From Hemerocallis citrina (lineage: Eukaryota > Streptophyta > Magnoliopsida > Asparagales > Asphodelaceae): a stretch of DNA of 64,000 nt. Every line of letters begins with the position of its first letter. Position 1 is the first letter of the stretch. The position numbers and the translations under genes are program-made. Shown one piece after another: positions 22,754 through 62,996 of this stretch. Location: assembly GCA_017893485.1 (NCBI GenBank), contig CM030366.1, positions 53,338,568-53,402,567 of the forward strand, written 5' to 3'. Below the pieces are notes generated by a model. That model ran no database searches. It saw only the letters and a program-made list of their open reading frames with translations, and was not told the origin of the DNA.

Positions 22754-23324
22754 ATAATTGTAATACCCTAAACTTTCATTTTAATAAAAATGTTGATTTT
22801 CACGTGTTGTGCACGTGCAAATTTCATGTGTATATTTTTTTATTTATTTTTATATATAAAATTTCATTTTTATAGTATGAACAATTATTTTTCCTTTCCT
22901 TTGTTTTTGTAAAAACCTATTTTGTAAAGCCTAAAACACTATTTTCTTAGTTTGAGCCCACTTAAATAATTGATTATTTTATTATTTTGGCCCACAACTC
23001 TAAGCCCACTATTTGTGAAGCCCACAAATTTAATTAATCATTTAAATGGTCACACTTGTCATGTAGACACAAAATGTGAACAATTGATTAATTAAAAATT
23101 GTACAAACTTCAAATAGGGGGTACTAGGGGGCACGTGCATGCACGTAGTGTGCAATGCACACCATTTGGAGGCCGGGTATGCATGGGAGTGATGGGGAGT
23201 GGGTATGTGTGTGCATGGGTAGTTATGTGAGTGTGGGTGGTTGCTACAACTTCCCCTCCTATCCTAACCATCCATCCTTTAACTATCTAATGAATCCTAG
23301 CCCTCCAATCCATCCTAGAATTAG

Positions 23325-23332
23325 TATAAATA
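23325..23332 (+). promoter_or_regulatory. LTR TATA box TATAAATA
   Basis: TATAAATACCCCC context, shared with the other Tekay-type LTRs. Confidence 0.6.
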
Positions 23333-24400
23333 CCCCCTACCTATTTGTATTCTACACTAAGAAACTATTGAAAGAAAGAAAACTATATAGGAGAAATATA
23401 TTAGAGTGAGTGTGAGTTGTGTGTGTGTTCCCCCATTGGAGGCCGGCCCATTCTTTCCCCAAGGAGCTCTCGGTTTGGCAAGGAAGCAAGGAGAAGGAGC
23501 TTTTGCATCGCAATCTAGGAGGAGAAGGCACTCTCTCGCATTCTGGGGACTCTAGGAGATTCTAATTGGCTTTTGCTTCAAAGAGGTGGGTATTTCTCAT
23601 GACTTCTAAAGTAGAAATCATGTTAGGAATGAATTGAATTGTTATTATAAAGCAACTAGTTGAAATGAAATGCATGTTTGCCTAATTAGAGGAGAATTGA
23701 TAAACTATTAGATGTGTGTTAATTTGGTTGCTAGATTGGTTAATTATGAGTAAAAGTAAATGTTCTCTTTGCTTCTAATGTTAGTATGCATGCTAAGTAT
23801 GTTTTAAATGCAATTGTGTGAATTAATTAGTAAAAGATTAGAACCATGTTTGTTAATGAAAGTATTAAAGTAGAATAGCATATTAGAGATGAATTGATGG
23901 AATGAATTACTAAGAAATAATTGTAAATTGTTGTAGTAGAATTCTCCATTTTGTATGCCATATGAATGTTAGATTATATGAAAGAGAATGTATTTTGCAA
24001 ACAAATGATTGAATGCATCATGTGTAAATTAGTGGATAAAAATATAAGTTTTATTCATTAAGAAAGATGATTTTGTGTTCTAAAAACATCATAGTTATAA
24101 GAGAACATTAATGTAATGAATTTTTGTGGAAAACTATCTTTAATTGTGAAGAAGTATGTTTTAGTTTTCAAATGTCGAAATTGTGATTATGAAATACAAA
24201 CTAAGGCTAAAATATATGTTTTGAAGAGTTAAAAATACCCTTAAAAATACTGGTTAATGTAGAATTAAATGTACTTTTATTCTGGAAAATTTTGTTTTCA
24301 AAAGAGGAGAAAAAGAGACAATTTTGTTTGAGATTTCATGAATTAAAATTATGAACAGAGAGTAGAATTAAAACCCAAATTATTTACTATCAAAATGAAT

Positions 24401-24470
24401 TGGCCACTTAGACCAACTGGTTGGAAGAGCCTTGGGTCGCTACAGTAGTCGGAGGTCTCGGGTTCGATAC
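24401..24470 (+). other. tRNA-like module 1 in solo LTR L4
   Basis: TTAGACCAACTGGTTGGAAG resembles a tRNA D-arm/A-box and GGTTCGATAC (24461-24470) a B box lacking the final CC. Confidence 0.5.
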
Positions 24471-24558
24471 TGTGTCTTGGTTTTTATTTTTTTGTTAAAA
24501 ATCCAAACAGCCGAGAGTCAATACTTAGAGAATATAACCCTTAGTTATATCGTTCGGC

Positions 24559-24618
24559 AACTTTGGCGTGTTGGTCTTGTGCGCTGTCTGTTTCACCGCT
24601 GGTTGTGGGTTCGAATCC
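24559..24618 (+). other. tRNA-like module 2 in solo LTR L4
   Basis: TGGCGTGTTGG (24564-24574) resembles an A box; GGTTCGAATCC (24608-24618) is a perfect B box. Spacing is about 33 bases. Confidence 0.55.
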
Positions 24619-26223
24619 GGTTGGGGGATTTGAGTTTAAAAAAATGTTTTTTGTGGATTATTTTTGATTATTTGAGTTTTAAAAATAAATAAAAATTGGA
24701 AAAATTATGGATTAATTACAGAAAAATTATTAGGACTTTATAAGAAAAATTTATATAGCTTTTGATAAAGTGTGAATAAGAAATTGGGGTTTTTGCAAGA
24801 AAGGACTTCTTTTTGAAATTAAATTATTTTTTTAAATAAAGGAAAAATAAATGAGAAATTTTTGAGTTATAAAGATGAAAAATTAGTAATGAGGAATTTT
24901 TGAAAGTGTGATTGGTGTAATTAATTGGACTTCTAATTTGTGCTTGTAGTAAGATTTTGAAATGAGAATAATGAAATTGTGGAATACATGATTTATTGAT
25001 TACTACTAGTTAGAATTTATTCTTACACATAAATTGTACGTGAAATTGAATTATTGATTGTGATGAGTTATGAAAGATGTGAATACATGAATGCTATGCC
25101 TATGAAAACATGAATTGTGATTAATCATGAAATGACCTTATGAGCATGAAAAGCTCGATGTTGAAATTATGAGTTGAAATTGAGAATTAGGGTATAGTCA
25201 AGCCTTATACCGGCAATAAAAGAAATGTGAAAATGATTATTGAAATGAGAAGACCAAGGTTTGGGTCATGTGAATTAAATGAATAAGACCGGTATAGTGG
25301 GAGGGCTACACTCTAAGGGTAGATTTTATTCATGATTCAATTAAACTAAGGATTAGATACATAGTGAAGATGTGATGAAAGTAAGAGAAAAACGTTAAGT
25401 ATAAGGGCCATTAGATTGGCGGCGTGAGAGTATTCACAGGATGTCCCATGATGCGTCATGATAGGGCGTGGATACTGCTCCAGAGTACCGTTCCGGTGGC
25501 GACGCTCGTGGGGTGTTTGACGACTGCGGGTGGTGTCATGTCTATGGTAGGAGCTGAATTACCACAGGATGCCTGCATGATGAGTCATGTGACAGTGCGT
25601 TGGGATTTCCTCCAGGGCGCCTAGACATGAGTTCGTAGGTCAGAAAACATCTAGGATACTTACTGTAGTTACAGCAGTAGATTAAGTCATGACGAGGGAT
25701 TGAACCCTACAAGATGAAGAACGGTTAAGGGCTTGCCCTCGGACCTATGTAGTATGGGCTGCATAGACTCTGAACAAGTGCGCATTAGTGTCATATAATA
25801 CAAATAATTGCATTAAGGGCTAAGTGCACGTTCACAACACGACATCAATACGATAGTCCCTTTAGCTTTGTTTGTGACAAGTTTGTGGTTTGCTAAGTAT
25901 TGAGAATCGTTATACTGTTTCGGCATAGAGAGGATAACCGTGTATAATATTTCGTCAGTTGAATGAATTGACGCGCCCACAGTTTTAAGTGCAGGGTAAA
26001 GATGCTTGACACATTTGAAGTATACATGCTGTGCAAGATTATTTTAAATGTTGTTTCATGTAAATTATTGTAAAATTGCTTCCGTTGTCACAATGTAAAA
26101 GTGTAATGTAACTCTGATATAAGAAATTTTTTTATTTCCTTGTAAAATTGTACGAAAGAAGTGTAAAGATCCTGTGGAACTTCGAATTCAGTTGTATTTT
26201 GGAATTCGGGGTGTTACAATAAT

Positions 26224-26772: not shown

Positions 26773-27259
26773 ATAGATGTAATACCCTGATTTTTCAAAT
26801 ATATGAAAGATTATTTATTTTTACATATGGTATGCATGTGTAGTATGTTGACTATTATTTCTCAACATGATGAATAAAGAGTATTGTTTTCTATAAAGCA
26901 TTTTCCTAAAGCCCAATGTTAGTTTGCTTATTTTTCTTTTAAAATATTTATTTTGGCCCAACTAATTTAAGCCCATGGTTTAATTCTTTTATTTTTGCAA
27001 CTTGTATTGTGTAACACCCTTTTTTTTCATAAGACTTGTTATGAGTGTACAAGTTTTATTAGTGTGGCTTGTGCTTACACGTGCACTCCATGTACACGTG
27101 CATAAGCACACACTTCTTGGCCGGATTGTGGAGAAGTGGGATCAAGTCATGGGTAGTTTTGTAGAGTGTGGGTAGTTATTTCAACCTCCTAGTCCATCCT
27201 AGTCCTTGATCCTTCAACTCCCTAGTGCATCCTAGCCCTCCATCTCACTCTAATTGGTG

Positions 27260-27267
27260 TATAAATA
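27260..27267 (+). promoter_or_regulatory. TATA box of Tekay-A 5' LTR
   Basis: TATAAATA followed by CCCCCTCTCC; transcription would start about 30 bases downstream. Confidence 0.65.
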
Positions 27268-27640
27268 CCCCCTCTCCTTCATTATTCCTCTTACACTAAA
27301 ATCCTATTGCAAGAGAGTATATTGTGAGAGAGTTGTGCGTGCTTTTTCTGTGGAGGCCGAGTAGCACTTCTGGAGTTTCGGCGTGGAGCAAGGAGCAAGA
27401 AGTCGTCCATTGCATTAAGGAGTTTCCTGGATTTCGATTACTTTCGTCAATATGGGGGGTTCAATTTTCTTTATTTCTAACTAGGAAATATATGGAATTA
27501 AATAATGATGCATGAAAAATGATTAATAAGAGTACACATTTAATTGGAAAATGATCTATTGATTGATTCATGTATGGATGGGAATTTCATGTGACTCTAT
27601 TGGTAAATGACATTGTAGAAAGAATCGAAAATGGTCTGTG

Positions 27641-28405
27641 CAGTCGACTGTCCAGGGGACAAGTCGACTGGTACGAGGCAAATGTTTTTCATGATTTCTA
27701 AATTAGAATCCTTATTAAGACTAAAGATTTATTGTGTATATGTATGCAAATAAAGGGATAGATCGATTGCTAGATCAATATTCTCCATGTGGTACACAAC
27801 CTAGAAAATATGAATGATTGATAATTGAGAAACTGGAAATGACATATACAGTCGACTGAGAATGTTAACAGGCGACTGGCCTATTGAAACAGAATATGAA
27901 CAGTTCAAAATTCTATGAAACGATGCATTTTAATATGATGTCTAGAATGGTAAATTGAGATTAGCATTTACCTCTGACAGTAAATGACGAGTAAATGAAA
28001 GTGCATGCTTAGTAATTTCTTGAGAAAAGAAACATTAGCTATGTGTTATTTACGCTAAATCGAAATGATGTTATGATGAGAATTACATGCTATGTTGACA
28101 CGATTTTAATGTGATATGGGTAATGAAGAACAGAAAGAAAGATAATTCCTCAAAGTGAAATTTAACCTGTTCAGTCGACCGAATGCTTGAAGAGTCGACT
28201 GTACCGAACATGATAAGTGTATAATTGAACTACACAGTACAGACGACTGATTTGTGGAACAGTCGACTGTTAACTGTATGATATTTTTTAATGTGGAAAC
28301 TGCGGAACAGCCGACTGACCATGTGCAGCAGTCGACTCTTCCGAGTGTTATTAATGAACTGTATTTGACTGGATAAGTCGACTGGTGGAGTTCCAAGTCG
28401 ACTGT
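27641..28405 (+). repeat. CAGTCGACTG palindrome array in the 5' LTR
   Basis: About eleven copies or one-base variants within 765 bp: exact at 27641, 27849 and 28260; AAGTCGACTG at 27661 and twice near 28375-28395; variants CAGTCGACCG, CAGCCGACTG, CAGACGACTG, CAGTCGACTC and AGGCGACTGG. Extended forms GTCGACTGTCCAG and GTCGACTGGT recur. Confidence 0.85.
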
Positions 28406-29675
28406 CCAGAGTGCTTTTTGGTATGTCTGAAATCGTATGATTTGTTTGTGGTAAAGATTGTGAATCTGGATATTGGTAAACTCTATTGTTCTTGCATGAT
28501 TGTACATGAAGTAAATCATTTATTGTGAATTATGAGAATTAAATGTATATGGAAGCTATGACATGAAAAAAAAAGAAAATCTTTGAGATCATGAAGTGAA
28601 CTCATGAGTTGGAAATGCTCAGATTTTAGAAATTGTGAATTTGAATTGAAATGAAAAGAGTAGCTAAGTCTCCCCCGGCGATTGAAAGAAATGAAATGAG
28701 AATTTGAAATGAAAGACCAAGGTTGGTCATGTGAATAAATGAATAAGTCCGGTTGAGTGGAGAGGCTAACTCTAGAGCTTTGATTTTTATTCATGATTCT
28801 AATAAAAACTAAGGATTTAGCACATAGTGGAGATGTGATGAAAGTAGGAGAAAAACATGAGTGAGAGCCATTGGGTAGCGGCGAGAGCGTATCCCAGGAA
28901 TTCCCATGATGAGTCTGGGTGAGGATGCGGCTCCAGAGTACCGTCCCGGTGGTGACACTCGTGGGATGTTCGAAGACTACGGGTGGTGTCATGTCTACGG
29001 TGAGAGCTGAATTACCACAGGATGTCTGCATGATGAGTCATGTCAGCGATGGGATTCCCTCCAGAGTGCCTAGGCATGAGTTCGTAGGTCAGAAGACATC
29101 TAGGATACTTACCGTAGTTACAGTAGTAGAGTAAGTCATAACGAGGGGTTGAACCCTATAAAGTTGAAGTACGATTAAGGGCTTGCCCTCGGACCTATGT
29201 AGTATGGGATGCATAGAATCCGAACAAGTGCGCATTAGTGTCATGTAACATAACTAATACATTAAGGATTAAGTGCACAATCACAACACGACATCATTAG
29301 GGTATTCCCTTTATTTGGAATGTGACAAGTTTGTGTTTGTTAAATATGGAAAATTGAGTTATACTATTTCCGGCATAGAGAGGATGGCCGTGTATAATGT
29401 TCGTCGGTTGAATAAACTGACGTACCCACAGTCTTATATGCAGGTATGTTAAAGATTAAAGAGGAACAAATGCTTAAGGATTCATTCAATGTTGATGTAT
29501 AATTGTTTCATTGTTGTAAATTCTACTTCTGCTGTGCAATGTAAATGTAATATTGATGTAAACTCTGATGTAAAAAGAAAAGTTTAAATTCCTTGTAAAG
29601 TTGTACTAAAGAAAGTGAAAAGATCCTGTAGAACATCTCGAATTCAGTGTATTTGGAATTCGGGGCGTTACAGAG

Positions 29676-30266: not shown

Positions 30267-30390
30267 ATTGTTGTAGCTTCTACTTTTCTTCCGTTCTGAT
30301 GTTAAGAAATGTTTTTAATTCGAATGTATAAACTTTGGAATTCAATGAAGTGCAAGTTGATTTAAATTCTTGTCTTATACTTCGAATTTA

Positions 30391-31416
30391 ATGGATCTTT
30401 TACATCAGAATATGTCGAGAAGAGGAGCTAGGAATGGGGAAGGTTTGGATCTGGAGACCGAACTTGCAAGGGTCAACCAGACGCTGAATGCAGTGGCTAT
30501 GAACCAAGGAAGGGGGCCAGTGAATCCAGTGCCCGAGGCGATTAAGCTGGTGGAATTGTTCAAGAGAATGAAACCACCTGTATTCGAGGGAAGGTCAGAC
30601 CCAGATGCGGCTGACGACTGGATTCGACAAGTGGAGACAATCTTTGAGGTGTTGGAGACACCGGAGGGCAGCAAAGTCAAGTTGGCGACTTTGCAACTGG
30701 AGAAGGATGCGGCTGTTTGGTGGCAGTCGATGAAGAGGACCATGGGAGGTATAGTGCTTGGATGGGAGGAATTTCTAGAAGAATTCCGCAGTCATTATTT
30801 CCCCTCCGATGTTCAGGAGAAGAAGGCGATGGAGTTTCTGTCGCTACAGCAAGGTAGCATGTCGGTGAGAGCGTATGAGACCAAGTTTACTCAGCTCTCT
30901 AGGTATGCTCCAGAACTGGTGATGGATGAGGCGAAGAAGGCCCGAAAGTTCGAGCATGGACTGAGGCCAAGCTTGAGATCCCGGATGATACCTCTTGGTA
31001 TCAGGCGATTTGACAAGTTGGTCAAGAGGGTGGCAGCGACGGAGGCAGATATGGAGCAGTTCCATGTTGCTCAGAACCGGAGGAACAACTGGCAGTCCGG
31101 GAAGAGGCCCGCCAATTCTGAGAGTTTCAAGGGCCAACCATCTGCATAGAGGTTCAAACCGACAGGGGCGAACACTATCAGTGTAGCTGGAGGACCTGGA
31201 AGCACTATGGTGAGACCTTCTACAGTCACTTGCTACAACTATGGTGAGGCGGGACATTACAAATCTCAATGTCTCAAACCACGGGCTGGCAATCACAATG
31301 TGCCAATACAGCAGACTGGGAAAAGGCCGTATCAACCAGGGCGAGTATTTGCCTTGACGGAAGCTGATGCTGAGGAGGCAGATCAGGTCATCTCTGGTAC
31401 GAGGGCTGATGTTTAG
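30391..31416 (+). pseudogene. gag: Tekay-A Gag polyprotein
   Basis: ATG at 30391 (MDLLHQN). The retrotransposon gag core is at about residues 60-200 (PPVFEGRSDPDAADDWIRQV, AAVWWQSMKRT, MEFLSLQQGSMSVRAYETKF). The nucleocapsid motif near 31234-31275 reads CYNYGEAGHYKSQC, so the second zinc cysteine is tyrosine. A TAG at 31147-31149 replaces a glutamine codon that is CAA in the Tekay-B copy. The unspliced frame ends at TAG 31414-31416, inside the putative intron. Functions in particle assembly when intact. Confidence 0.88.
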
Positions 31417-31486
31417 TGGTTCTTGTCATTTCTTCTCCCCATTCATATTGTGAAACTGTTATGTAATGGTGTGTATTATGTAACAG
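31397..31486 (+). other. Putative 90-bp GT-AG intron between gag and protease
   Basis: Donor CTG|GTACGAG, T-rich interior, acceptor TTATGTAACAG|GA. Removal joins VISG directly to ELYLNG, giving the usual spacing ahead of the protease DTG, and removes the in-frame TAG at 31414. Length is 90, a multiple of three. The Tekay-B copy has a 99-bp equivalent at the same phase with well-conserved last 35 bases. Splicing is inferred, not shown. Confidence 0.6.
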
Positions 31487-33519
31487 GAGAACTCTATCTT
31501 AATGGAATGAAAGCTGTTGTATTGTTCGATACTGGATCCTCTCATACTTTTGTGTCTCCTAAATTTGATAAAGTGTTGGGAGTTGAACCGAAGATTTTTC
31601 CCGGCAAGATCTTAGCAGTAGCTACTCCGTCAGGGGAAACTTTAACCACTGATCAGTATTATGTTGATTGCGAGATTGTAATTGGAGATCGAATCTTTGG
31701 CATTGATCTGATCGAGCTGACTATCTTAGGAGTCGATGTTATCATTGGCATTGATTGGATATCGGTGTACAGTGCAAGCATCGAGTGTAAGACCAAGACG
31801 GTGACAGTGAAGGCTCCAGGTGGACCTGAAGTCACTTTCCAAGGGAAGCAGAAGTGTTCTAAGCTGGTGGCAACTATCCGCAAGGAAGAGACTCCTGTGG
31901 AATTGCAAGGGATTCCTGTGGTTCGGGACTATCCAACTGTGTTCTTGGAAGATTTTCCTGGGTTACCTCCACATCGTGATGTAGAGTTCAGCATCACTGT
32001 TCAACCGGGAAGTGCACCCATTTCTAAGGCACCGTATAGAATGGCTCAAGTGGAACAGGATGAGGTGAAACGGCAGATTGAGGAACTGTTGGAGAAAGGC
32101 TTTATTCAACCTAGTGCGTCCCCTTGGGGAGCACCAGTGCTTTTGGTAAAGAAGAAGGATGGATCGATGAGAATGTGCATCGATTACCGAGAGCTGAATA
32201 AGGTCACTGTTCAGAATAAGTATCCAATTCCTCGAATTGATGATTTGTTCGATCGTCTACAAGGAGCAGCTGTATTCTCCAAAATAGATCTTCGATCAGG
32301 ATATCACCAGGTTCGAGTGAAAGCTGAAGATGTGCATAAAACTGCATTTAGAACTCGACATGGGCATTACGAATTCTTAGTTATGCCATTCGGAGTGACG
32401 AATGCACCCGCAATCTTCATGGATTTGATGAACAGAGTTCTGAGGCCGTTTATTGATTCTTTCGTCGTGGTGTTTATCGACGATATTCTCGTGTACTCCA
32501 AGTCAGAGGCGAAGCACACCGAGCATCTAGCAGCAGTTTTGCAGAAGTTGGAAGAGCAGAAGTTGTATGCCAAGTTATCCAAGTGTGATTTCTGGAAATC
32601 TGAAGTGGCATTCCTAGGTCACATCCTTTCTAAGGAGGGAGTGGCAACTGACCCTCAGAAGATAGAGGCAGTGAGAGATTGGGCTAGGCCTACTACAGTG
32701 AAGGAAGTCAGAAGTTTTCTTGGGATGACTGGATACTACCGGAGATTCATTCAAGGTTATGCTCAGATAGCTGTACCGCTTACTGGACTGACCAAGAAGA
32801 ATGTGAGCTTCAAGTGGACTAAGCAATGTGAGGCGAGCTTTCAGGAGTTGAAAGATAGACTGACTACTGCACCTATTTTGGCTCTTCCTAGAGCAGGTGT
32901 TGAGTATGATGTCTATAGCGATGCTTCACATCGTGGGCTTGGTTGTGTCCTAATGCAAGAAGGAAGAGTAATCGATTATGGGTCTAGGCAACTACGACCA
33001 CATGAAAAGAATTACCCGACTCATGATCTGGAGTTGGCTGCGATTATCTTTGCCCTGAAGCAATGGAGGCACTATGTGTACGGTGAGAAGTTGAACATGT
33101 ACACGGACCACAAGAGCTTGAAGTATATATATCAGCAGAGGGATCTGAATCTGAGGCAGCGGAGATGGTTGGAAGTGCTCGAGGACATGCGACCTGAGAT
33201 CAAGTATCATCCTGGAAAGGCTAATGTTGTTGCTGATGCACTTAGTCGCAAGAGCAGTTTGGCCAGTTTGATTACAACTCAGAGGCATCTGATTGAGGAG
33301 CTGGACCGAGCAGGTATTGAAGTTGTCTTGCAAGGATTGGGAGCATCTTTGGCTCAGTTAAGGCTTCAGCCTACACTGAATGCAAGGATCATTGCAAGTC
33401 AAGAGGTTGATGCTGATATCTTGGAGATGAAGGAGCAGGTTGGTGCTGGCAGGTTGCCCGGATTTCAAACCAGGGACGGAGTGCTGTGGTTCGGAGATAG
33501 ACTGTGTGTTCCAAATTAG
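31487..33519 (+). pseudogene. pol: Tekay-A protease, reverse transcriptase and RNase H
   Basis: Open from the putative splice acceptor to TAG 33517-33519. Protease active site [11 protein letters not shown] has DTG at 31528-31536. Reverse transcriptase: [35 protein letters not shown] and the catalytic FIDDILVYS at 32473-32490. RNase [11 protein letters not shown] with the first Asp at 32920, then [18 protein letters not shown] and [15 protein letters not shown]. The residues needed for catalysis look intact. The TAG at 33517 replaces the CAG seen in the Tekay-B copy (VPDQSN versus VPN-stop-T), so integrase is cut off. Sequence is typical of the Tekay/Del clade. Confidence 0.95.
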
Positions 33520-34800
33520 ACGGACTTGAAAGAGAGTATTCTTCAGGAGGCGCATGCTACTCTTCTGTCTGTACATCCTGGGAGTACTAAGATGTACAAA
33601 GACATCAAACAGCATTTCTGGTGGTCAGGTTTGAAGCGGGATGTGGCTGAATTTGTTGCGAAGTGTGAGGTTTGTCAGCAAGTCAAAGCCGAAAATCAGA
33701 GACCCGGAGGTCTATTACAGCCGTTACCTATTCCGGAGTGGAAGTGGGATAACATCAGTATGGATTTCATCACGGGGTTGCCTAAGAGTTCTATGGGCAA
33801 TGATGCGATTTGGGTTATAGTCGATCGACTGACCAAGTCCGCTAACTTTTTAGCGATAAAACTCACTGCTTCGATGGACAAGTTGGCTGAGTTGTATGTT
33901 GGTGAGATTGTCCGACTTCGTGGTGTTCCGTCAACTATTGTGTCTGATCGAGATGCGCGGTTTACTTCGCATTTCTGGGGGAGTCTTCAGACAGCTTTGG
34001 GTACCAAGGCAGATTTCAGCACTGCTTTTCATCTGCAAACCGATGGGCAGACCGAGAGAGTCAACCGTATTCTTGAGGATATGCTTCGGTGTTGTATGCT
34101 AGACTTTGGAGGCAGTTGGGAAAGGCATTTACCTTTGGTAGAGTTTGCCGACAACAACAATTTTCAGGCTAGCATCGGGATGGCGTCGTACGAAGCTTTG
34201 TATGGTAGGAAGTGCAGGACTCCTGTTTGTTGGTATGAAGTTGGGGAGCGTCAGTCGTTTGGTCCTGAGCTTGTGCAGCAAACTTCTGAGAAGATTGTTC
34301 TGATCAGGAAGAGGTTGGTAGAAGCTCAGAGCAGGCAGAAAAGCTATGCAGACAACCGGAGAAGGGACCTTGAGTTTGAGGTTGGTGACTTTGTCTTTCT
34401 GAAGATATCGCCCAGTAAAGGTGTGGTCCGATTTGGCAAAGGCGGGAAGCTAGCCCCGAGGTTTATAGGCCCGTACAAGATATTGAAAAGGATCGGGAAA
34501 ACTGCTTACCGGCTTGAATTACCGGAAGAGTTATCTCAGGTGCACAATGTCTTTCATGTGTCTATGCTGAGAGGTTATATTCCAGACCCGAGTCATCATC
34601 TGCCTGAAGTGCCGGAAGGTTTGCATTTAGACCTGAATTACATCGAGTCTCCTGTCGAGATTGTTGATCGTCGAGAGAAAGTCTTGAGGAATAAGACGAT
34701 ACCGATGGTCAAGGTGGTCTGGAGAAACCACTTGGTTGAAGAGGCTACTTGGGAATCTGAGGAGAAGATATTAAAGGACTATCCTGAGCTTTTTGCTTGA
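33520..34800 (+). CDS. pol: Tekay-A integrase and chromodomain
   Basis: Same frame as the upstream pol. The HHCC zinc finger is at about 33553-33690 (HATLLSVHPG...CEVCQQVK). DDE core: SMDFITGLP, IVSDRDARF and NRILEDML supply the three acidic residues. The C-terminal fold has VGDFVFLKISP and the conserved VHNVFHVSMLRGYIPDP. It ends with a chromodomain (RNKTIPMVKVVWRN, EEATWESEE) and stop TGA. The chromodomain type fits Tekay, which targets heterochromatin. Readable only if the TAG at 33517 is bypassed. Confidence 0.93.
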   Translation, partial: TDLKESILQEAHATLLSVHPGSTKMYKDIKQHFWWSGLKRDVAEFVAKCEVCQQVKAENQRPGGLLQPLPIPEWKWDNISMDFITGLPKSSMGNDAIWVIVDRLTKSANFLAIKLTASMDKLAELYVGEIVRLRGVPSTIVSDRDARFTSHFWGSLQTALGTKADFSTAFHLQTDGQTERVNRILEDMLRCCMLDFGGSWERHLPLVEFADNNNFQASIGMASYEALYGRKCRTPVCWYEVGERQSFGPELVQQTSEKIVLIRKRLVEAQSRQKSYADNRRRDLEFEVGDFVFLKISPSKGVVRFGKGGKLAPRFIGPYKILKRIGKTAYRLELPEELSQVHNVFHVSMLRGYIPDPSHHLPEVPEGLHLDLNYIESPVEIVDRREKVLRNKTIPMVKVVWRNHLVEEATWESEEKILKDYPELFA

Positions 34801-34890: not shown

Positions 34891-37785
34891 TGTAATACCC
34901 TGATTTTTCAAATATATGAAAGATTATTTATTTTTACATATGGTATGCATGTGTAGTATGTTGACTATTATTTCTCAACATGATGAATAAAGAGTATTGT
35001 TTTCTATAAAGCATTTTCCTAAAGCCCAATGTTAGTTTGCTTATTTTTCTTTTAAAATATTTATTTTGGCCCAATTAATTTAAGCCCATGGTTTAATTCT
35101 TTTATTTTTGCAACTTGTATTGTGTAACACCCTTTTTTTATATAAGACTTGTTATGAGTGTACAAGTTTTATTAGTGTGGCTTGTGCTTACACGTGCACT
35201 CCATGTACACGTGCATAAGCACACACTTCTTGGCCAGATTGTGGAGAAGTGGGATCAAGTCATGGGTAGTTTTGTAGAGTGTGGGTAGTTATTTCAACCT
35301 CCTAGTCCATCCTAGCCCTTGATCCTACAACTCCCTAGTGCATCCTAGCCCTCCATCTCACTCTAATTGGTGTATAAATACCCCCTCTCCTTCATTATTC
35401 CTCTTACACTAAAATCCTATTGCAAGAGAGTATATTGTGAGAGAGTTGTGCGTGCTTTTTCTGTGGAGGCCGAGTAGCACTTCTGGAGTTTCGGCGTGGA
35501 GCAAGGAGCAAGAAATCGTCCATTGCATTAAGGAGTTTCCTGGATTTCGATTACTTTCGTCAATAAGGTGGGTTCAATTTTCTTTATTTCTAACTAGGAA
35601 ATATATGGAATTAAATAATGATGCATGAAAAATGATTAATAAGAGTACACATTTAATTGGAAAATGATCTATTGATTGATTCATGTATGGATGGGAATTT
35701 CATGTGACTCTATTGGTAAATGACATTGTAGAAAGAATTGAAAATGGTCTGTGCAGTCGACTGTCCAGGGGACAAGTCGACTGGTACGAGGCGAATGTTT
35801 TTCATGATTTCTAAATTAGAATCCTTATTAAGACTAAAGATTTATTGTGTATATGTATGCAAATAAAGGGATAGATCGATTGCTAGATCAATATTCTCCA
35901 TGTGGTACACAACCTAGAAAATATGAATGATTGATAATTGAGAAACTGGAAATGACATATACAGTCGACTGAGAATGTTAACAGGCGACTGGCCTATTGA
36001 AACAGAATATGAACAGTTCAAAATTCTATGAAACGATGCATTTTAATATGATGTCTAGAATGGTAAATTGAGATTAGCATTTACCTCTGACAGTAAATGA
36101 TGAGTAAATGAAAGTGCATGCTTAGTAATTTCTTGAGAAGAGAAACATTAGCTATGTGTTATTTACGCTAAATCGAAATGATATTATGATGAGAATTACA
36201 TGCTATGTTGACATGATTTTAATGTGATATGGGTAATGAAGAACAGAAAGATAGATAATTCCTCAAAGTGAAATTTAACCTGTTCAGTCGACCGAATGCT
36301 TGAAGAGTCGACTGTACCGAACATGATAAGTGTATAATTGAACTACACAGTACAGACGACTGATTTGTGGAACAGTCGACTGTTAACTGTATGATATTTT
36401 TAATGTGGAAACTGCGGAACAGCCGACTGACCATGTGCAGCAGTCGACTTTTCCGAGTGTTATTAATGAACTGTATTTGACTGGATAAGTCGACTGGTGG
36501 AGTTCCGAGTCGACTGTCCAGAGTGCTTTTTGGTATGTCTGAAATCGTATGATTTGTTTGTGGTAAAGATTGTGAATCTGGATATTGGTAAACTCTATTG
36601 TTCTTGCATGATTGTACATGAAGTAAATCATTTATTGTGAATTATGAGAATTAAATGTATATGGAAGCTATGACATGAAAAAAAAAAGAAAATCTTTGAG
36701 ATCATGAAGTGAACTCATGAGTTGGAAATGCTCAGATTTTAGAAATTGTGAATTTGAATTGAAATGAAAAGAGTAGCTAAGTCTCCCCCGGCGATTGAAA
36801 GAAATGAAATGAGAATTTGAAATGAAAGACCAAGGTTGGTCATGTGAATAAATGAATAAGTCCGGTTGAGTGGAGAGGCTAACTCTAGAGCTTTGATTTT
36901 TATTCATGATTCTAATAAAAACTAAGGATTTAGCACATAGTGGAGATGTGATGAAAGTAGGAGAAAAACATGAGTGAGAGCCATTGGGTAGCGGCGAGAG
37001 CGTATCCCAGGAATTCCCATGATGAGTCTGGATGAGGATGCGGCTCCAGAGTACCATCCCGGTGGTGACGCTCGTGGGATGTTCGAAGACTACGGGTGGT
37101 GTCATGTCTACGGTGAGAGCTGAATTACCACAGGATGTCTGCATGATGAGTCATGTCAGCGATGGGATTCCCTCCAGAGTGCCTAGGCATGAGTTCGTAG
37201 GTCAGAAGACATCTAGGATACTTACCGTAGTTACAGTAGTAGAGTAAGTCATAACGAGGGGTTGAACCCTATAAAGTTGAAGTACGATTAAGGGCTTGCC
37301 CTCGGACCTATGTAGTATGGGATGCATAGAATCCGAACAAGTGCGCATTAGTGTCATGTAACATAACTAATACATTAAGGATTAAGTGCACAATCACAAC
37401 ACGACATCATTAGGGTATTCCCTTTATTTGGAATGTGACAAGTTTGTGTTTGTTAAATATGGAAAATTGAGTTATACTATTTCCGGCATAGAGAGGATGG
37501 CTGTGTATAATGTTCGTCGGTTGAATAAACTGACGTACCCACAGTCTTATATGCAGGTATGTTAAAGATTAAAGAGGAACAAATGCTTAAGGATTCATTC
37601 AATGTTGATGTATAATTGTTTCATTGTTGTAAATTCTACTTCCGCTGTGCAATGTAAATGTAATATTGATGTAAACTCTGATGTAAAAAGAAAAGTTTAA
37701 ATTCCTTGTAAAGTTGTACTAAAGAAAGTGAAAAGATCCTGTAGAACATCTCGAATTCAGTGTATTTGGGATTCGGGGCGTTACA
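34891..37785 (+). mobile_element. Tekay-A 3' LTR
   Basis: Same length as the 5' LTR. The TATA box is at 35373-35380 and the CAGTCGACTG array at 35754-36520. Most differences from the 5' LTR are transitions. Confidence 0.95.
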
Positions 37786-38340: not shown

Positions 38341-39735
38341 TGTTGGATCCTGTAGGCGAGGCAACAAACACTAGAGGGGGGGGGGGGGGTGAATAGTGTT
38401 TATTAAATTAAAATTGCGGAATAAATAATTTTTCTTCGGCGCAGTCGACTTAGAAGTGCACCAGTCTACTGAGTTAACCCAATAAGAGATAATTCAAACA
38501 AATCTGTGAAGTCGACTTAAAGCAGAAACAGTCGACTGATTTAAACAATAAACTAACAGAGTACAGGTTTGACCAGTCGACTTATAAAGGAGTCAGTCGA
38601 CTGTCCAGACAAGTTTCACAGTAATAAAACAAACAGAAAAATGTAAATGCAATTTCAAGAGATACAACCACGAGTACACACGATGTATCCTGTTTCGGTC
38701 CTTCCGACCTACATCCAGTCCCCAAGCAACCCACTTGAGATTTCCACTATTCTTGAAAAAAATTTACAAGAATACCCTACGGCGTTCAGACAACAACCTT
38801 GTCTAACCCGTAGTCCTTTCTCTCAACCAGAGAAAGCACCCCACTCTTCCACCAAGAGTGAAACCACTGAGTCTACACCCTAGAGTCTAACTCTCCAACC
38901 GAGAGGAAAAGAAAACAATAAAATGTTTACAATCAACCTATAGCCTTGTATGTGATTTTTGATGTAGTACGTGGCTAAAAGAGGTTGACTTCTATATCCA
39001 GTCCAGAACGAAATCAGATGTTATACTGGATTGAATGTAGAGAACCAAGACTTAGAGATTTGAAAGCTTTGTCTCTTGAAGAATGTAACACTTAGAAAAT
39101 CTCAAAAGAATGCTCGGAAATTGTTAGATCTTTTAATAGTGAATTCTGAACTCTATTTATAGAGTTAGAGTTACTGGACGTTGGGAGGCAGTTATTCCAA
39201 CTATCAACCAACGGATCTAAACAGCTTTGAATTTGAAAAACGATTTTAAAAACAGAAAACGGTCAAATGCACTCGAACAGTCGACTGGGTTGCCATAATG
39301 AGTCGACTGGTCAGAGTTTGAATAAGTTTAGTCAGTTTTGTACTGACAGTCGACTGGTATGAGTATCGGTCGACTGGTACTCAACAGTTAAACTATTTCA
39401 AACTGTTTTGACCTTTTGATGTTTTGAAAAACACACATTTGTAAAAGAGTGAGTGTATGTGTGTGTGACAAGGCTTTACATCATACTAAGACCCAAATAA
39501 AGAAAGATTACATTTGTTTACAAGACATAACAATAAATGACACTTTAAGCATAAATCTTGGCTCGAGTCTTGAGTCTTGAGTGAAGCTTTGCCATTGTCT
39601 TTATCTGGAGCTTTGTGATTATTCATTTGTTCAGCTGTATAGTAATGAAACCTTTGTGTATACAACCTGCAATTATAAAGTATAGCATAGATACATATTG
39701 CAGTGTGTTGTGATCATCAAAATCAAGAATCAACA
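38341..39735 (-). mobile_element. Sirevirus LTR, left (3' LTR of copy A), 1395 bp
   Basis: Minus-strand ends TGTTGATTCTTG and GGATCCAACA. A TATA box (CTATAAATAG on minus) is at 39153-39162 and a G run near 38376-38389. About nine CAGTCGAC-type sites. Confidence 0.9.
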
Positions 39736-40174
39736 TTCTCCCCCTTTTTGATGATGACAACATAATAGCTGATAATAACATAAATAATACAAGCATAGCA
39801 ATGATATGCTCCCCCTATTAAAAGCACAATATGCATACATGAAGATATATCATAAAACCTTAAACAGACTATGTATCAGTCGACTTATAATGTGATCAGT
39901 CGACTTAACAGAAAAAAAGATAAACACAGAAACACAGAAATATCAGTCGACTTAATAGCGAAATAAATTACAGCAAATATAGTGAACATAAGATAACCAG
40001 TAAACACAATAAACACATAGAGGGTATTTCTCCCCCTTTGTCATCAACAAAAAAATAAGAGAACCAATAATGATAAAGGAAATAACAAAGTCTCTTACAG
40101 AAATAAACAAAGTCTTTTGCAAAAACAAAAAAAAAAGTAATAAGGAAAATACATAAATAAATCTAAAAAAGTCA
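39736..40174 (-). promoter_or_regulatory. Copy A 3' noncoding region with repeated polypurine tracts
   Basis: Three purine runs on the minus strand: AAAAAGGGGGAGAA at the LTR edge (39736-39749), AGGGGGAGCA (39808-39817) and AAAGGGGGAGA (40029-40038). Multiple polypurine tracts before the 3' LTR are a Sirevirus trait. Three CAGTCGACTT sites lie among them. Confidence 0.75.
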
Positions 40175-41239
40175 TCAATCTTCATCTTCGGTGTCTTCAT
40201 CAACAGCTTGAGACGGTGGGGGAAATTGAGTAGTAAAGAGATGAGTTAGATTGGTGATTTTAGAGTTAAGAGAGTCAAGACGAGAATCAAGAGTGTCTTG
40301 ATGATCCATTAGATAGTTAACACATTCATAGAGAGTATGTGGATTATCAAAATCAGCACGAGGACGAGAAGAACTGGAAGCAGAAGATCGTCTAGCAGAA
40401 GTTGCTAGAGGAACCTGGGAAGGAGGAGGAGACCTAGGGGAAGTTCTAGGTGGAGGGTCAAGAAGCTTCATACGGGCTAAACTAGCACGATCGAAGAACT
40501 CATAATGTTTAACGACATTGGTCTCCGAGTCGAAATCAATATTATAAGCCATAAAGACACGGGTAAGGAGACCACCAAAAGATAAGAAATGAGTATGAGA
40601 CTGTTGAAGTTTTGAAAAAATGGCACGACCCCAATTGATATTAATTCTTCCAAAAATTGCATAAACTGCTTGTTGCAATTCCATAGAATACTGATCATAA
40701 CTCCCGCTTTTGGGAAGAATGTTATAAGCTAGTATTCGTGCAACTAGTTTTGCCACAGGTGTGATAGATTTACTAGTCATGGGGGGTCCATGATTTGGCA
40801 AATATATTTTGGAAAAAATAGAGGAATCATCTTGAATTATTTCTCCTAAATCAAGTCCCTCGTTATCAATACCCATAATAAGATTAATTCTCTCGGATGT
40901 AAGTTTAATCTTTGTATTTTTGACCGAGGAATAAATAATAATTTCTCCGTCCTCTTTTTGAACAACTTTCATGTTTGTATAAAAGAGATAGATGAGTTGG
41001 GGATAGTAATTAGGTTGATTGACCAAAGAAAGAAACTCATATAGACTACAGTTTTGAAAAATAGGGACAACATTGAACCTATCTAACTCATTGAAATTAA
41101 CAAATCGTCCTGGAAAAATCACCATGGTACAAATAAGATACCATCGTTCCAAAAGATCAGGACTCCTAAGGTATTGAGAATAATCTTGGGATGAAGAACT
41201 AGCATCACCATGAGATCTCTTAGATTTTTTTGGAGCCAT
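40175..41239 (-). CDS. Sirevirus ORF downstream of pol, copy A, 354 aa
   Basis: Start chosen at ATG 41239 (MAPKKSKRSHGDASSSS), 19 codons inside the longest open frame, because of its basic/serine start. The body (RFNVVPIFQNCSLYEFLSLV, LTSERINLIMGI) resembles the family annotated as putative plant transposon protein; the end has a Pro/Ser-rich linker, a short coiled coil (DSRLDSLNSKITNLTHLF) and an acidic tail. It sits where Sireviruses carry an env-like ORF, on the same strand as pol. I see no signal peptide or membrane segment, so env is unlikely. Fully open here; copy B has a frameshift. Confidence 0.75.
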   Translation of the reverse strand: MAPKKSKRSHGDASSSSQDYSQYLRSPDLLERWYLICTMVIFPGRFVNFNELDRFNVVPIFQNCSLYEFLSLVNQPNYYPQLIYLFYTNMKVVQKEDGEIIIYSSVKNTKIKLTSERINLIMGIDNEGLDLGEIIQDDSSIFSKIYLPNHGPPMTSKSITPVAKLVARILAYNILPKSGSYDQYSMELQQAVYAIFGRININWGRAIFSKLQQSHTHFLSFGGLLTRVFMAYNIDFDSETNVVKHYEFFDRASLARMKLLDPPPRTSPRSPPPSQVPLATSARRSSASSSSRPRADFDNPHTLYECVNYLMDHQDTLDSRLDSLNSKITNLTHLFTTQFPPPSQAVDEDTEDED

Positions 41240-41744
41240 TAAGAGAAATGCAAGGAACGAGATTTTACCAACAGGGCAGAGGGAAACAAACAGCAAAATG
41301 AGAGACGAGAATCAGCAGCTCCAAAAAGATTCGGCAGTCGACTCTTCGGGATTGATCTTCTTCTTCTCTCCTTAGGGTTTTAGATTTGGGGTAAAAGTAA
41401 AAAATGGGAGATGGAGGCAGTGGAGAAGGTTTTTAACAGAAGACAGATGGCTGAGATTCAATAGGAAAGAGATCAACGAATCATAGAGAAGTCACGGGTG
41501 AGTAAAGAGATAGACATTTGTCTCAAAATCTGTGTGATGATTCGACGCTGAAGACAGATTAACTCGCGACAGTCGACTTATAGTATAGAACAGTCGACTT
41601 AGTCGAGTAGAAAATAAGTTTTTATATCAACTGATCAGTCGACTTGGAAAAAATTCAGTCGACTGGTCAAAAAAGAAAATAAGTATACAGAAAATACGAG
41701 ACAGTCGACTTAATGAAAACACAGTCGACTTGACAGAAATATTT
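41240..41744 (-). other. Spacer between pol and the downstream ORF, rich in CAGTCGACTT
   Basis: No open frame. It holds seven CAGTCGAC sites (41334, 41570, 41591, 41637, 41656, 41702, 41722), often spaced about 20 bases. Confidence 0.7.
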
Positions 41745-43634
41745 TCAACAAATATCAATAAAATTACATATTCCTAGTTCTCTTCTTAAAGTAATAAAAG
41801 TATCTTCTTTAAAGGGTTTTGTAAAGATATCAGCTACTTGTTTATCAGTAGAGATAAAGTCTAAAGATATATCTCCTTTTAAAACATGATCACGTAGAAA
41901 ATGATGTCGAATATCAATATGTTTCGTACGTGAATGTTGAACCGGGTTTTTAGATAGATTAATTGCACTGGTATTATCACACAAAATTGAAGGTTTTTCA
42001 AAGGAAATACCATAATCTAATAAGGTTTGTTTCATCCACAAAATTTGTGCACATGCCAAACTTGCAGCGATATATTCAGCTTCTGTAGTAGATAGGGACA
42101 CTGAATTTTGCTTTTTACTACACCAAGAAACTAGTGAATGTCTCAAAAAGTGACATGTCCCACTAGTGCTCTTGCGATCAGTTTTACTACCAGCAAAATC
42201 AGCATCACTATACGACAAGAGTTGGAAATTATCGGTGCGTGGATAAAATAAACCATAATCAGATGTGCGTTTAATATATCTTAAAATTCGTTTCACAGCT
42301 TTTAAATGAGACTCTTTAGGACTAGACTGATATCTAGCACACAAATATACACTGAACATAATATCTGGTCTACTTGCGGTAATATATAAGAGTGAACCAA
42401 TCATACCTCGATAGAGTTTTTGATCAACACTCTTACCTAATATATCTTTGTCAAGGGTATTAGTAGTAGCCATCGGTGTGGATTTACTACTTGTACTATC
42501 CATGTTAAACCGTTTGAGTAATTCCTTTGCATATTTTCCTTGATTAATAAATATGCCATTTGAAGACTGTTTAATTTGTAGTCCAAGAAAATAATTGAGT
42601 TCACCCATGTGACTCATCTCAAACTCGTTTTTCATGGTGTTAGCAAACTCTTGACATAGATTATTATTAGTAGAACCAAAGATTATATCATCAACATATA
42701 TTTGTATGATTAAGATATCATTCTTAATTCTCTTAATAAACAAAGTAGTATCTACTTTACCTATCTCAAATCCTGTTTCTAAAAGAAAAGTTTTCAGACG
42801 ATCATACCAAGCACGTGGTGCTTGTTTAAGACCGTATAAAGGCTTTTTCAATTTATAAACATGATTTGGGAATTGTTCATGTTCAAAACCTGGTGGTTGT
42901 TTAACATAAACATTCTCTTTAATAAACCCATTAAGAAAAGCACTTTTAACATCCATTTGATAAAGTATAAAATTCATAAAACAAGCAAAAGATAATAAGA
43001 TACGAATTGATTCTAATCTAGCAACAGGAGCATATGTTTCATCAAAATCTATGCCTTCTTCTTGATTATATCCTTGAGCAACTAGTCTAGCTTTGTTCCT
43101 TACAACTTGTCCTGATTCATCTAACTTATTTTTAAATACCCATTTGGTACCAATAATAGTATGATCAGGAGGTCGTGGAACTAAATCCAATACATCATTC
43201 CTTATAAATTGGTTTAATACATCTTGCATGGCATTCATCCAAAATTCATTCTCACATGCTTCTTGTATATTTTTCGGTTCAAAATCCGACAAGAATGAGG
43301 TATGAGATATCATATTAATATGTGATCGTGTCTGAATACCATGGGAGATGTCACCAATTATTAGGTCATGTGGATGATCTCTAACTTCAACAAAAGATTT
43401 TGGTAAAGTTGAAGATATCACAATAAGATCAGTCGACTTGACAGGTTCTTCAGTCAACTGCTTTGCTTCAGTCGACTTGCAGTCCTTATCAGTCGACTTA
43501 TCCGCAAGACTAGTTTGTTCTAAAGATGTAATCACTTTATTTAAAGGTGATGAATCAGCTTCATCATCTTTAACTAAATTTGATGAAGGCAGAGATTCAT
43601 CGAATGTAACATGCATTGACTCTTCAATAGTCAT
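41745..43634 (-). CDS. pol: Sirevirus copy A reverse transcriptase and RNase H
   Basis: A 629-residue open frame. It starts in the integrase-RT linker, which includes [13 protein letters not shown], a direct translation of CAGTCGACT repeats. Reverse transcriptase: [48 protein letters not shown] and catalytic YVDD at 42698-42687. RNase [52 protein letters not shown]. Stop at 41745. All catalytic motifs look intact; the frame is separated from integrase by a 74-bp deletion relative to copy B near 43706. Confidence 0.93.
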
Positions 43635-44742: not shown

Positions 44743-45033
44743 ATGTTTTGAACACCCGCTGTCAAGTATCCAGCGATCTTTCTTTGGTACCTATAAAATA
44801 TTCAATGTAAATATGGTACCCTTTTTATTGGGTCCAAAACATATTAGTTTGGGGGAAACCAAACCCATAATGAGTTTGATTTTCCTCCATAAGCAGGAAT
44901 AAAATTAATAGAATTACATACATTTAACATATATGAATTGATATACGCAGTTCTATCATTCAGATTTAAGTTAACTGGAACCCATACAAATTTGTTCTGT
45001 CCAGTCGACTTTATAGTATCCTTCAGTCGACTT
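44743..45033 (-). pseudogene. pol: Sirevirus copy A protease region
   Basis: The active site WILDSGCSKHMTG is read at about 44775-44735 (DSGC at 44763-44752). Upstream to 45033 several stops break the gag-protease join, and CAGTCGACT sites are embedded (45002, 45024). Confidence 0.7.
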
Positions 45034-46532
45034 CTACTGTAAGTCAGTCGACTGGATGATGGTATAGGTCGACTTATATGAGGTTCTGGTCTTGTTGAAT
45101 AAGGACACAGTTCCTCTGGATAGATGACTGGTGGATGGACTCAGTCGACTCACCCGAACGTTAGACTTGCTTTTATCACTAAAATTTATAACCTTAGGCT
45201 TTTCAAAGAATTCATATAGTTTATGTGTAACACTAGAAATAGATTCAGGTTTATTTCTATTAGTGTTTTTAGAAGAAGATTCTTTTACAAGAGAGTTTTT
45301 GAAACCAAGACCATATTTTTGACTAGATTTCACTTGATTATGAAGAACATCATTTAAATTCTCTTTGCCTTTATTGAACTTAGATACGTTCTTGAATATC
45401 TCTTCATAATTCTTTTTTAGAGATTCAAGATCAGTATCTAAACTTGCAATACGAGAATTTAAAGATTTCACTTCCTTATCAAGGTTAAGATTTTCTTGAG
45501 AAAGTGTTTGATTAACTTTCTCTAGATTCTTAACTCTAATCTTTTCCTTTTTCAACTCTTGAAAGATTTCATTAAAAGCATCAAGTAAATCTTCTGAATC
45601 AAAATCATTACTTACTTGATCTTGTGAAGCCATAAAACACATGTTTGCAACTTCATTGGTTTCATCAGTTTCTTCTTCAGAGGAAGAATCACTATCATCC
45701 CAAGTTGCTTGATAAGCCTTTTTGTTCTTGGCAAACTTGTTCTTTGTGTACTTGTCCTTCTTGAAGTTGGAGGTCTTTCCCTTATTCTTTGTATTTTCTA
45801 GGGGACAATCCTTCTTCATGTGACCTGTTTTATTACACCTGAAACAAGTTGGAGGATCATTAGAATCTCTAAATTTAGAATTGAACTTACCTTTCTTTAG
45901 AAATTTTTTAAATCTCCTTGTGAACATGGCTATCTCCTCTTCATCTTCTTCTTCATCTTCTGAATCTGTCATGGCTTTAAAGGCTAATGATTTCTTCTTT
46001 GCCTGTTGTGGTTCTGCATCCTTCTTCCGTTCTTCAATTTGAACCTCGTATGCCATTAGATTTCCCACAAGATTCTCAAGAGAAAGTTGTGATAAATCAT
46101 TTGCTTCTTCTATTGCAGTGGTCTTCTTTTCCCATTCAGGAGTGAGTGCACGAAGGACTTTTCTCTCCATCTCTGCTTGTGTATATATCTTTCCAAGTGC
46201 CACAAGCGAGTTTGTAATGTCAGTAAATCTAGTAATCATCTCGGACACAGTTTCATTTTCCTTCATGCGGAACATTTCAAACCTGTGAACAAGAACATAT
46301 ATTTTAGATTCTTTCACTTTGTTTGTTCCATCATGTCATCATTCCATTGTGCATATGGAATAGTCGGAGCAGTGTATTCCGTTTTCGTCATTTGCCATAT
46401 TTCATAGTTAATGGATTGAAGGTAGATCTTCATTCTGCACTTCCAATAGTTTTAGTTTGTTCCATCGAAGAGAGGTGGCCTTTGTGTAGATTGGCCTTCA
46501 TGGTACTGATTTGCATTCGAAGTAGTTGCCAT
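45034..46532 (-). pseudogene. gag: Sirevirus copy A gag
   Basis: True start is ATG 46532 (MATTSNANQYHEGQ), 14 bases after the primer site. Codon 27 is TAA (46454-46452) where a tyrosine would fit (FDGTN-stop-NYWKCRMKI). A frame change with an apparent internal deletion near 46320 fuses the N-terminal domain to VKESKIYVLVHRFEMFRMKE. From there the frame is open to 45034: an acidic stretch, zinc knuckle CFRCNKTGHMKKDCP and a long coiled coil (VKNLEKVNQTLSQENLNLDK). The acidic/KKSLAFKA context is Sirevirus-like. Confidence 0.82.
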
Positions 46533-47969: not shown

Positions 47970-48429
47970 TTCTCCCCCTTTTTGATGATGACAACACAAT
48001 AGCTGATAATAACATAAATAATACAAGCATAGAAATGATATGCTCCCCCTATTAAAAGCACAACATGCATACATGAAGATATATCATAAAATCTTAAACA
48101 GACTGTGTATCAGTCGACTAATAAAGTGATCAGTCGACTTAACAGAAAAAATGATAAACACAGAAACACAGAAATATCAGTCAACTGATAATGTGATCAG
48201 TCGACTTAACAGCGAAATAAATTACAGCAAACATAGTAAACATAAGATAACCAGTAAACACAATAAACACATAGAGGGTATTTCTCCCCCTTTGTCATCA
48301 ACAAAAAAAATAAGAGAACCAATAATGATAAAGGAAATAACAAAGTCTCTTACAGAAATAAACAAAGTCTTTTGCAAAAACAAAAAAAAAGTAATAAGGA
48401 AAAATACATAAATAAATCTAAAAAAGTCA
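47970..48429 (-). promoter_or_regulatory. Copy B 3' noncoding region with repeated polypurine tracts
   Basis: Same three purine runs as copy A: 47970-47983, about 48042-48051 and about 48284-48293. CAGTCGACTW sites at about 48111, 48130 and 48198. Confidence 0.72.
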
Positions 48430-49495: not shown

Positions 49496-50000
49496 TAAGA
49501 GAAATGCAAGGAACGAGATTTTACCAACAGGGCAGAGGGAAACAAACAGCAAAATGAGAGACGAGAATCAGCAGCTCCAAAAAGATTCGGCAGTCGACTC
49601 TTCGGGATTGATCTTCTTCTTCTCTCCTTAGGGTTTTAGATTTGGGGTAAAAGTAAAAAATGGGAGATGGAGGCAGTGGAGAAGGTTTTTAACAGAAGAC
49701 AGATGGTTGAGATTCAATAGGAAAGAGATCAACGAATCATAGAGAAGTCACGGGTGAGTAAAGAGATAGACATTTGTCTCAAAATCTGTGTGATGATTCG
49801 ACGCTGAAGACAGATTAACTCGCGACAGTCGACTTATAGTATAGAACAGTCGACTTAGTCGAGTAGAAAATAAGTTTTTATATCAACTGATCAGTCGACT
49901 TGGAAAAAATTCAGTCGACTGGTCAAAAAAGAAAATAAGTATACAGAAAATACGAGACAGTCGACTTAATGAAAACACAGTCGACTTGACAGAAATATTT
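49496..50000 (-). other. Spacer of copy B with CAGTCGACTT repeats
   Basis: Equivalent of 41240-41744 in copy A, with the same motif spacing (for example 49826, 49847, 49893, 49912, 49958, 49978). Confidence 0.65.
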
Positions 50001-60830: not shown

Positions 60831-60833
60831 ACC

Positions 60834-62993: not shown

Positions 62994-62996
62994 CTC

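Follow-up and report, generated by a model that had tools for sequence, protein, structure and literature searches.

Palindrome doublets with an outward box are shared by Copia and Gypsy LTR retrotransposons in Hemerocallis citrina

Introduction

The closest described system is the set of palindromic repeated motifs (RM) found in 13 Sireviruses, each with at least eight and up to 32 copies (Bousios et al. 2010, PMC2829016). According to the section of that paper devoted to them, RM lie near the TATA box, in the LTRs and, in Sireviruses that carry env, mostly just upstream of the env-like gene; they are termed Sirevirus-specific and absent from classic Copia, and no common factor was found. The RM closest to the palindrome described here, that of Vitis (CGGTCGACCG), differs from CAGTCGACTG only by two symmetric changes. 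However, RM have the form CGG...CCG, to which Tnd-1 is the exception printed in that section, whereas the sites described here are mainly CAG...CTG, with some CGG or CCG half sites. Nor are they confined to Sireviruses, as Tekay-type Gypsy LTRs and a third family share one geometry with them, and the same section mentions neither a doublet spacing nor an outward box. Sirevirus palindromes are already known; new, as far as the literature was searched, is a geometry common to superfamilies.

Helitrons readily capture foreign DNA. In maize, the Sirevirus palindrome CACCGGACNNNGTCCGGTG is the top motif in Helitrons too, according to the relevant part of PMC10760457, so that there, as here, one palindrome is common to unrelated kinds of transposable element. 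However, that part of the paper treats it as RNA secondary structure, and the carriers here are LTR elements without clear similarity in their flanks. A second parallel is found in VANC and the VANDAL elements, in which transposable elements hold dense arrays of short motifs and the VANC motifs co-evolve with their binding protein (PMC5735166, in the sections on these motifs). Those motifs, as described there, have one orientation, are largely family-specific and grow by tandem repeats, in contrast to the palindromic doublets found here across superfamilies.

Doublet geometry, the outward box and sharing with Gypsy lineages were not found in the parts of the literature searched, and among the matches listed for AGTCGACT by itself, titles and abstract openings name no plant transposable element; among those listed for it in combination with retrotransposons, they name no such arrays. 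The word GTCGAC, as we take it, resembles the DRE core, and we know of no DREB site for which a palindrome of 10 bp, a doublet of 20 bp and an outward box are all required. A DREB1D motif has been associated with plant LTRs (PMC11656987, in the part concerned).

Materials and methods

The window is the whole stretch of DNA that was analysed, 64,000 nucleotides of Hemerocallis citrina. A site is the 10-mer CAGTCGACTG, counted exact or within one mismatch, and the null consisted of thirty dinucleotide shuffles per stretch. The sample comprised the window and twenty 10-kb stretches around the first 12-mer matches on contig 1; loci L016-L035 were selected for holding the 12-mer ACAGTCGACTGT, and lineages were assigned by the window proteins and by LTR similarity. 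Genome-wide counts refer to an assembly of 3,775 Mb in 701 contigs and track copy number rather than independent origins.

The flanks of doublets were compared across lineages with 26 Sirevirus, 42 Tekay-type and 14 third-family doublets. Only doublets of 19-22 bp were used, a doublet was dropped when its identity to one included earlier exceeded 85%, and L026 and L041, which are weakly tied to Tekay, were grouped with Tekay.

Results

Elements and palindrome sites in the window

Two retrotransposons of different superfamilies hold nearly all sites in the window. The Gypsy element and its relatives are laid out as follows.

22758..26218, + strand: related Tekay-type solo LTR, with no array and 0 sites within one mismatch
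26779-37785, + strand: Tekay-A, a Gypsy element with 2.9-kb LTRs
26779..29672, + strand: 5' LTR of Tekay-A, TG...CA
27260..27267, + strand: TATAAATA box in the Tekay-A 5' LTR, about 380 bp upstream of the array start and within the block that is best conserved in the first part of the LTR
27641..28404: array of the Tekay-A 5' LTR, 12 sites in six doublets spaced 20-21 bp (27641/27661, 27849/27869, 28172/28192, 28240/28260, 28308/28329, 28375/28395)
30361..34800, + strand: gag, protease-RT-RNaseH and an integrase part with chromodomain of Tekay-A
34892..37785, + strand: 3' LTR of Tekay-A
55286..64000, - strand: Tekay-B, related internal region, with a 5' LTR that extends beyond the window

Tekay-A is bracketed by an ATAGA target-site duplication (26774-26778 and 37786-37790), and its two LTRs are 99.17% identical. 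Pfam matches to RVT_1, RNaseH, integrase zinc-binding and SH3 domains give it the reverse transcriptase and integrase parts of a Gypsy element, and a Chromo match of 24.9 bits falls just under the Pfam cut-off of 25.1. It is putatively a Tekay chromovirus, a lineage name carried over from the first sequence-only reading. The TATAAATA box would be a promoter element of the Tekay LTR. Each of the array-free Tekay-type LTRs (22758-26218 and 55286-57818) holds two GCACGTGC (G-box) palindromes, about 310-320 bp apart. An AT microsatellite lies in 1-22757, with ATATATAT counted 125 times.

The Copia element and its arrays follow.

38341-52650, - strand: Sirevirus, a first copy plus a truncated second copy, with an LTR common to both
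38341..39735, - strand: 3' LTR of the first copy
38442..38603: array near the 3' end of that LTR (38442/38462, 38509/38529, 38574/38594; period 65-67)
about 39162: TATA (CTATAAATA) of that LTR
39278..39376: array 116-214 bp upstream of TATA (39278/39300, 39347/39367)
39738-39745: polypurine tract AGGGGGAG of the first copy
39877..39953: linker array, upstream of the 3' LTR
40175..41311, - strand: extra ORF after pol, in env-like position, Pfam Transposase_32, no sites inside
41335..41731: array directly upstream of the extra ORF (41335 and doublets 41570/41591, 41636/41656, 41702/41722)
43430..43499: array in the coding region of the INT-RT linker, with KST three times in frame
45002..45151: array at the gag 3' end and gag-pol junction
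46560..47969, - strand: LTR common to both tandem copies, its upper boundary inferred from the polypurine tract
46675-46836 and 47512-47610: arrays in the common LTR
48111..51755: arrays of the truncated second copy (48111-48207, 49591-49987, 51686-51755)

Pfam matches to gag, integrase and RVT_2 place the Sirevirus domains in the Copia order gag, INT, RT. The primer binding site TATCAGAGC adjoins the 5' LTR (46554-46546, minus strand), and three AGGGGGAG polypurine tracts lie near the 3' LTR, with first bases at 39745, 39816 and 40037. The attachment site after the terminal tract reads AA/TG, not AT/TG. Since AT at this position is reported for 20 elements (PMC2829016, in the section concerned), AT/TG is a typical rather than a defining sign, and the element stays a Sirevirus on its other signs. 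The second copy (46560-52636) stops within the integrase region, as after unequal recombination.

The original prediction had put about eleven copies of the palindrome in 765 bp of the Tekay-A LTR and dozens across the Sirevirus, including its LTR and coding DNA, at a density above chance for a 10-mer. This observation holds and exceeds the size first given to it. The 5' LTR of Tekay-A has 12 sites within one mismatch (three exact) in 764 bp, 27641-28404, with a shuffle mean of 0.03, and the 3' LTR likewise has 12, at 35754-36516. In the 14.3 kb of the Sirevirus (38341-52650) there are 48 sites, 11 of them exact, against shuffle means of 0.13 and 0.00; in the first copy, four lie in the INT-RT linker frame and two in gag. 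The 74 sites within one mismatch in the whole window are made up of the 24 in the Tekay-A LTRs, the 48 in the Sirevirus and two elsewhere. The coding region of Tekay-A (30361..34800) has none, and the parts of the Tekay-B LTRs within the window have no array, its single one-mismatch site, at 61385, being internal. Given that Tekay-B and the solo LTR are array-free, the array is not essential for the clade.

The arrays take no fixed place relative to TATA. Upstream of it they lie at 116-214 bp in the Sirevirus and at about 190-340 bp in the third family described below; downstream, they lie at 559-720 bp in the Sirevirus and at about 380-1,150 bp in Tekay, and are found in the third family too.

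The doublet and its outward box

The first reading had not noted that the sites are arranged as doublets with an outward box, nor the third family or the extent of the motif across the genome. Most sites in the Tekay-A, Sirevirus and third-family arrays pair as doublets 20-22 bp apart, start to start. In the Tekay-A 5' LTR, no site stands alone: the 12 make up six pairs with a spacing of 20 or 21 bp, and the three shortest steps from pair to pair measure 67-68 bp. In the Sirevirus, pairing at 20-22 bp accounts for most sites, and successive pairs outside coding DNA are 65-69 bp apart. When sites were placed at random within the same clusters, the excess at 18-22 bp had p 0.007 in Tekay, and that of the Sirevirus was reached in 0 of 5,000 simulations. 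Across the genome, pairs of perfect AGTCGACTG words number 122,934 at 18-22 bp, 3,629 at 23-27 bp and 22,619 at 44-48 bp, against zero or one for each backwards control; several 25-bp pairs among the matches listed fall between adjacent doublets. A scan of IMG/VR for the doublet returned three contigs. Exceptions to the doublet rule, within one mismatch, are L027 (gaps of 32 and 72), L029 8666-8749 (12 and 62) and part of L026. A 10.5-bp period is absent across all site distances (0.11 at 10.5 vs 0.38 at 9.5). Thus, helical phasing is supported only within doublets.

The bases outside a doublet follow a pattern of their own. Of the 86 outward flanks of 43 pooled doublets from nine locus groups, 52 have C at +3, 56 have G at +5 and 41 have A at +6, a pattern that the inward flanks lack. 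With a leave-group-out matrix, the outward flanks beat shuffles in seven of the nine locus groups; the boxes of the other two, L026 and L023, were not significant. Between lineages, a box model derived from one predicts the outward flanks of another in all six train-test directions (z 4.1-13.4), and inward flanks in this test score like shuffles or lower. Genome-wide, the outward box CAGTCGACTGNNCNGA occurs 72,223 times on the two strands, against 7,879 for the base-swapped CAGTCGACTGNNGNCA.

This box also accounts for the extended words that the original prediction had named as common to both elements. Both words occur in both, CAGTCGACTGTCCAG at 27641, 35754, 38594 and 46827 and GTCGACTGGTA at 27663, 35776, 39349, 39369, 47583 and 47603, and that part of the claim stands. 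Exact sharing of flank words, however, is only borderline for words of four, five or six bases (p 0.07-0.08), and no pair shares seven; the words are instances of the outward box or its looser relatives.

Carriers across the genome

The 12-mer ACAGTCGACTGT occurs 30,420 times in the genome, against 42 for its backwards control; equal frequency in unrelated sequence, one of two outcomes that would have spoken against the original prediction, was therefore not seen. The other, that a single Tekay copy carries it, did not occur either, as ten diverged Tekay arrays have it.

Arrays of at least three sites number 44 in the sample. Of the homologous clusters that they form, that of the Tekay-A LTR is the largest, with 13 arrays, and several others are Sirevirus. 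Counting each non-alignable array as a separate family was tried and dropped, since L022, L032 and L035 adjoin the conserved part of Tekay LTRs (72-78% identity). L026, L027 and L041 are only weakly tied to Tekay, and L023 and the array at L029 8666-8749 were placed in no lineage. An array is also present in a gag-only Gypsy-type element (L031 2071-8940), whose 2.5-kb LTRs are 99.2% identical and whose gag is 62% identical to that of Tekay. ORFs with a FAR1 domain (L022 2564-3337) and an AP2 domain (L027 8078-9028), which may be host or transposon genes, lie no more than a few kb from arrays.

A third LTR family with a different primer site also carries arrays. The LTR-like insert of L021, about 1.6 kb long (TG...CA, target-site duplication AGTAT), lies within a Tekay leader, and arrays flank its TATA on either side. 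On contig 1, a relative is found repeatedly at intervals of 6.0 kb and runs on into a PBS-like TGGCGCCGCTGCCGGGGA and a protease frame, whose match (E 6e-5, 24.0 bits) is under the cut-off of 24.3; the gag-like frame has no Pfam match. This family is putatively a Gypsy of the Athila/Tat kind, for which a primer binding site TGGCGCCG...GGGGA, gag, an aspartic protease and a Gypsy RT are expected.

Selective retention of the sites

In ten diverged Tekay arrays, the site columns are 0.909 identical and the spacers 0.618, the site used to select many of the loci being excluded; the same layout shifted by 10-60 bp gives a mean of 0.667 and a maximum of 0.810. Gaps, counted over seven of the ten rows, amount to 0.0 in sites vs 0.08 in the other columns. 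Central CpGs are kept in 92 of 94 cases, as opposed to 29 of 99 for the region's other CpGs, and this count is the firmer figure because alignment programs tend to anchor on repeated words. Doublet spacing is 19-21 bp in nearly all Tekay rows, the exceptions being 17, 17, 11 and one deletion (L029, L033, L019), and the longer gaps differ by tens of bases. Sirevirus arrays show the same for sites vs spacers, 0.963 vs 0.808 in four LTRs and 0.950 vs 0.680 in three; since L016 and L017 most likely represent both LTRs of a single element, these comparisons cover three and two elements. Sites that stay intact while the surrounding DNA decays are, as far as such alignments tell, under selective retention.

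Discussion

It is fairly probable that the arrays are composite sites of one trans-acting multimeric factor, most likely host-encoded, on which unrelated LTR retrotransposons each depend. Binding by a protein, its being a single one and the host's, and a positive effect are suggested by the sequence patterns. A dimer would sit on each CAGTCGACTG palindrome, as palindromy calls for a dimer, and two dimers would lie two helical turns apart (20-22 bp) on one face of the DNA. The outward half-site (about TYCCGA) would extend the contact of the dimer, and two to six doublets per array could form a cooperative enhancer, which would turn the element on or prevent its silencing. Because arrays occur on either side of TATA, ahead of the extra ORF and within coding linkers, a role as enhancer or in chromatin is more fitting than that of a fixed promoter box. 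Several observations speak against the one-factor reading: arrays that depart from the doublet rule, the two locus groups whose boxes are not significant, the lack of a 10.5-bp peak across all distances, the differing array positions, some of them in coding DNA, and the array-free Tekay-B and solo LTRs.

Alternatively, though we consider it unlikely, the arrays could be bound by a regulatory or anti-silencing protein encoded by an element, of the VANC kind that binds its motif and removes methylation, for instance the product of the extra Sirevirus ORF with its Transposase_32 match; Tekay and the third family would then exploit it in trans. The Sirevirus arrays, placed in the LTR, the linker, just before the extra ORF and in linkers that code for protein, somewhat resemble the densely set VANC21 motifs in VANDAL21. 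Apart from the extra ORF, present in two copies, every ORF of at least 200 aa in the two window elements has a gag or pol domain. However, VANC21 motifs are rare outside their own family in the account cited (PMC5735166), whereas the palindrome arrays are common to three LTR families. The extra ORF itself gave an unusable structure prediction (mean pLDDT 40), its best PDB match has E 0.35, and none of 7,744 candidates in the protein collection is a relative. A host factor is preferred, as arrays occur in Tekay-A, in which no ORF of at least 200 aa is comparable to the extra one, and in the gag-only element of L031. Hairpins of RNA or DNA, acting through small RNA or RNA structure as has been proposed for the palindromes of maize Sireviruses, are improbable. 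Every doublet is able to form a 10-bp stem with a 10-nt loop, and those maize palindromes are described as small-RNA hot spots in the parts of PMC5311732 and PMC10760457 that treat them. Compensatory pairing within doublets was nevertheless rejected, as mismatches between the two sites number 63 vs 63.2 expected from a re-pairing null (43 doublets); this lack of covariation favours duplex DNA. In the ten aligned Tekay arrays, moreover, site 28240 is non-palindromic and its partner remains CAGTCGACTG, a weak point since the partner word selected many of the loci, and hairpins leave the outward box unexplained.

The sharing itself had been ascribed to either capture or convergent recruitment, an interpretation that is supported in part. 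A comparison of the third LTR family, the Sirevirus and the Tekay LTR with sites and outer boxes masked leaves a best match of E 0.088, and inter-doublet spacers of Tekay and Sirevirus, trimmed of their outer 7 bp, are no more alike than shuffles (p 0.16 and 0.50). With no clear residual similarity outside the units, recent capture is without support, and recruitment would fit the site, the spacing, the box and the retention. An older transfer, in which template switching or nested insertion moved an array between lineages and all but the sites then decayed, seems quite improbable. It would agree with the identity of site, spacing and box across lineages, with nested insertions such as the third-family LTR in the Tekay leader of L021, and with the maize palindrome that is also the top Helitron motif (PMC10760457, in the part concerned); yet no clear similarity is left outside the units, and retention would still require selection on the sites. 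That chance or tandem duplication produced the arrays is hardly credible. Inter-doublet spacers are alike in the Sirevirus, both whole (p 0.002) and trimmed of their outer 7 bp (p 0.0075), and in Tekay when whole (p 0.003) though not when trimmed (p 0.34), but the shuffle and genome-wide controls contradict such an origin, and spacers inside doublets are not significantly alike (p 0.07-0.33), which argues that doublets are not fresh duplications.

With a host factor as the preferred reading, a wider and more tentative one may be considered, namely that LTR retrotransposons of the same genome, though unrelated, use a common cis-regulatory grammar of arrayed doublets with outward half-sites and have one trans-acting reader, so that Copia and Gypsy elements would be regulated together as one guild, and their code would evolve jointly within each plant lineage. 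If so, the differing Sirevirus motifs of other plants would be dialects shared with their own Gypsy elements. Should unrelated elements obey one and the same factor, a burst of one retrotransposon family would be coupled to bursts of others, and this would bear on genome size, on silencing and on the spread of regulatory sites near genes by transposable elements. The composite site measures about 42-44 bp and its doublet core occurs more than 100,000 times in the genome; thus, the factor should be findable with a single DNA probe.

The Sirevirus palindromes at 43430-43499 encode repeated Lys-Ser-Thr in the INT-RT linker, and the DNA sites therefore seem to shape the polyprotein there.
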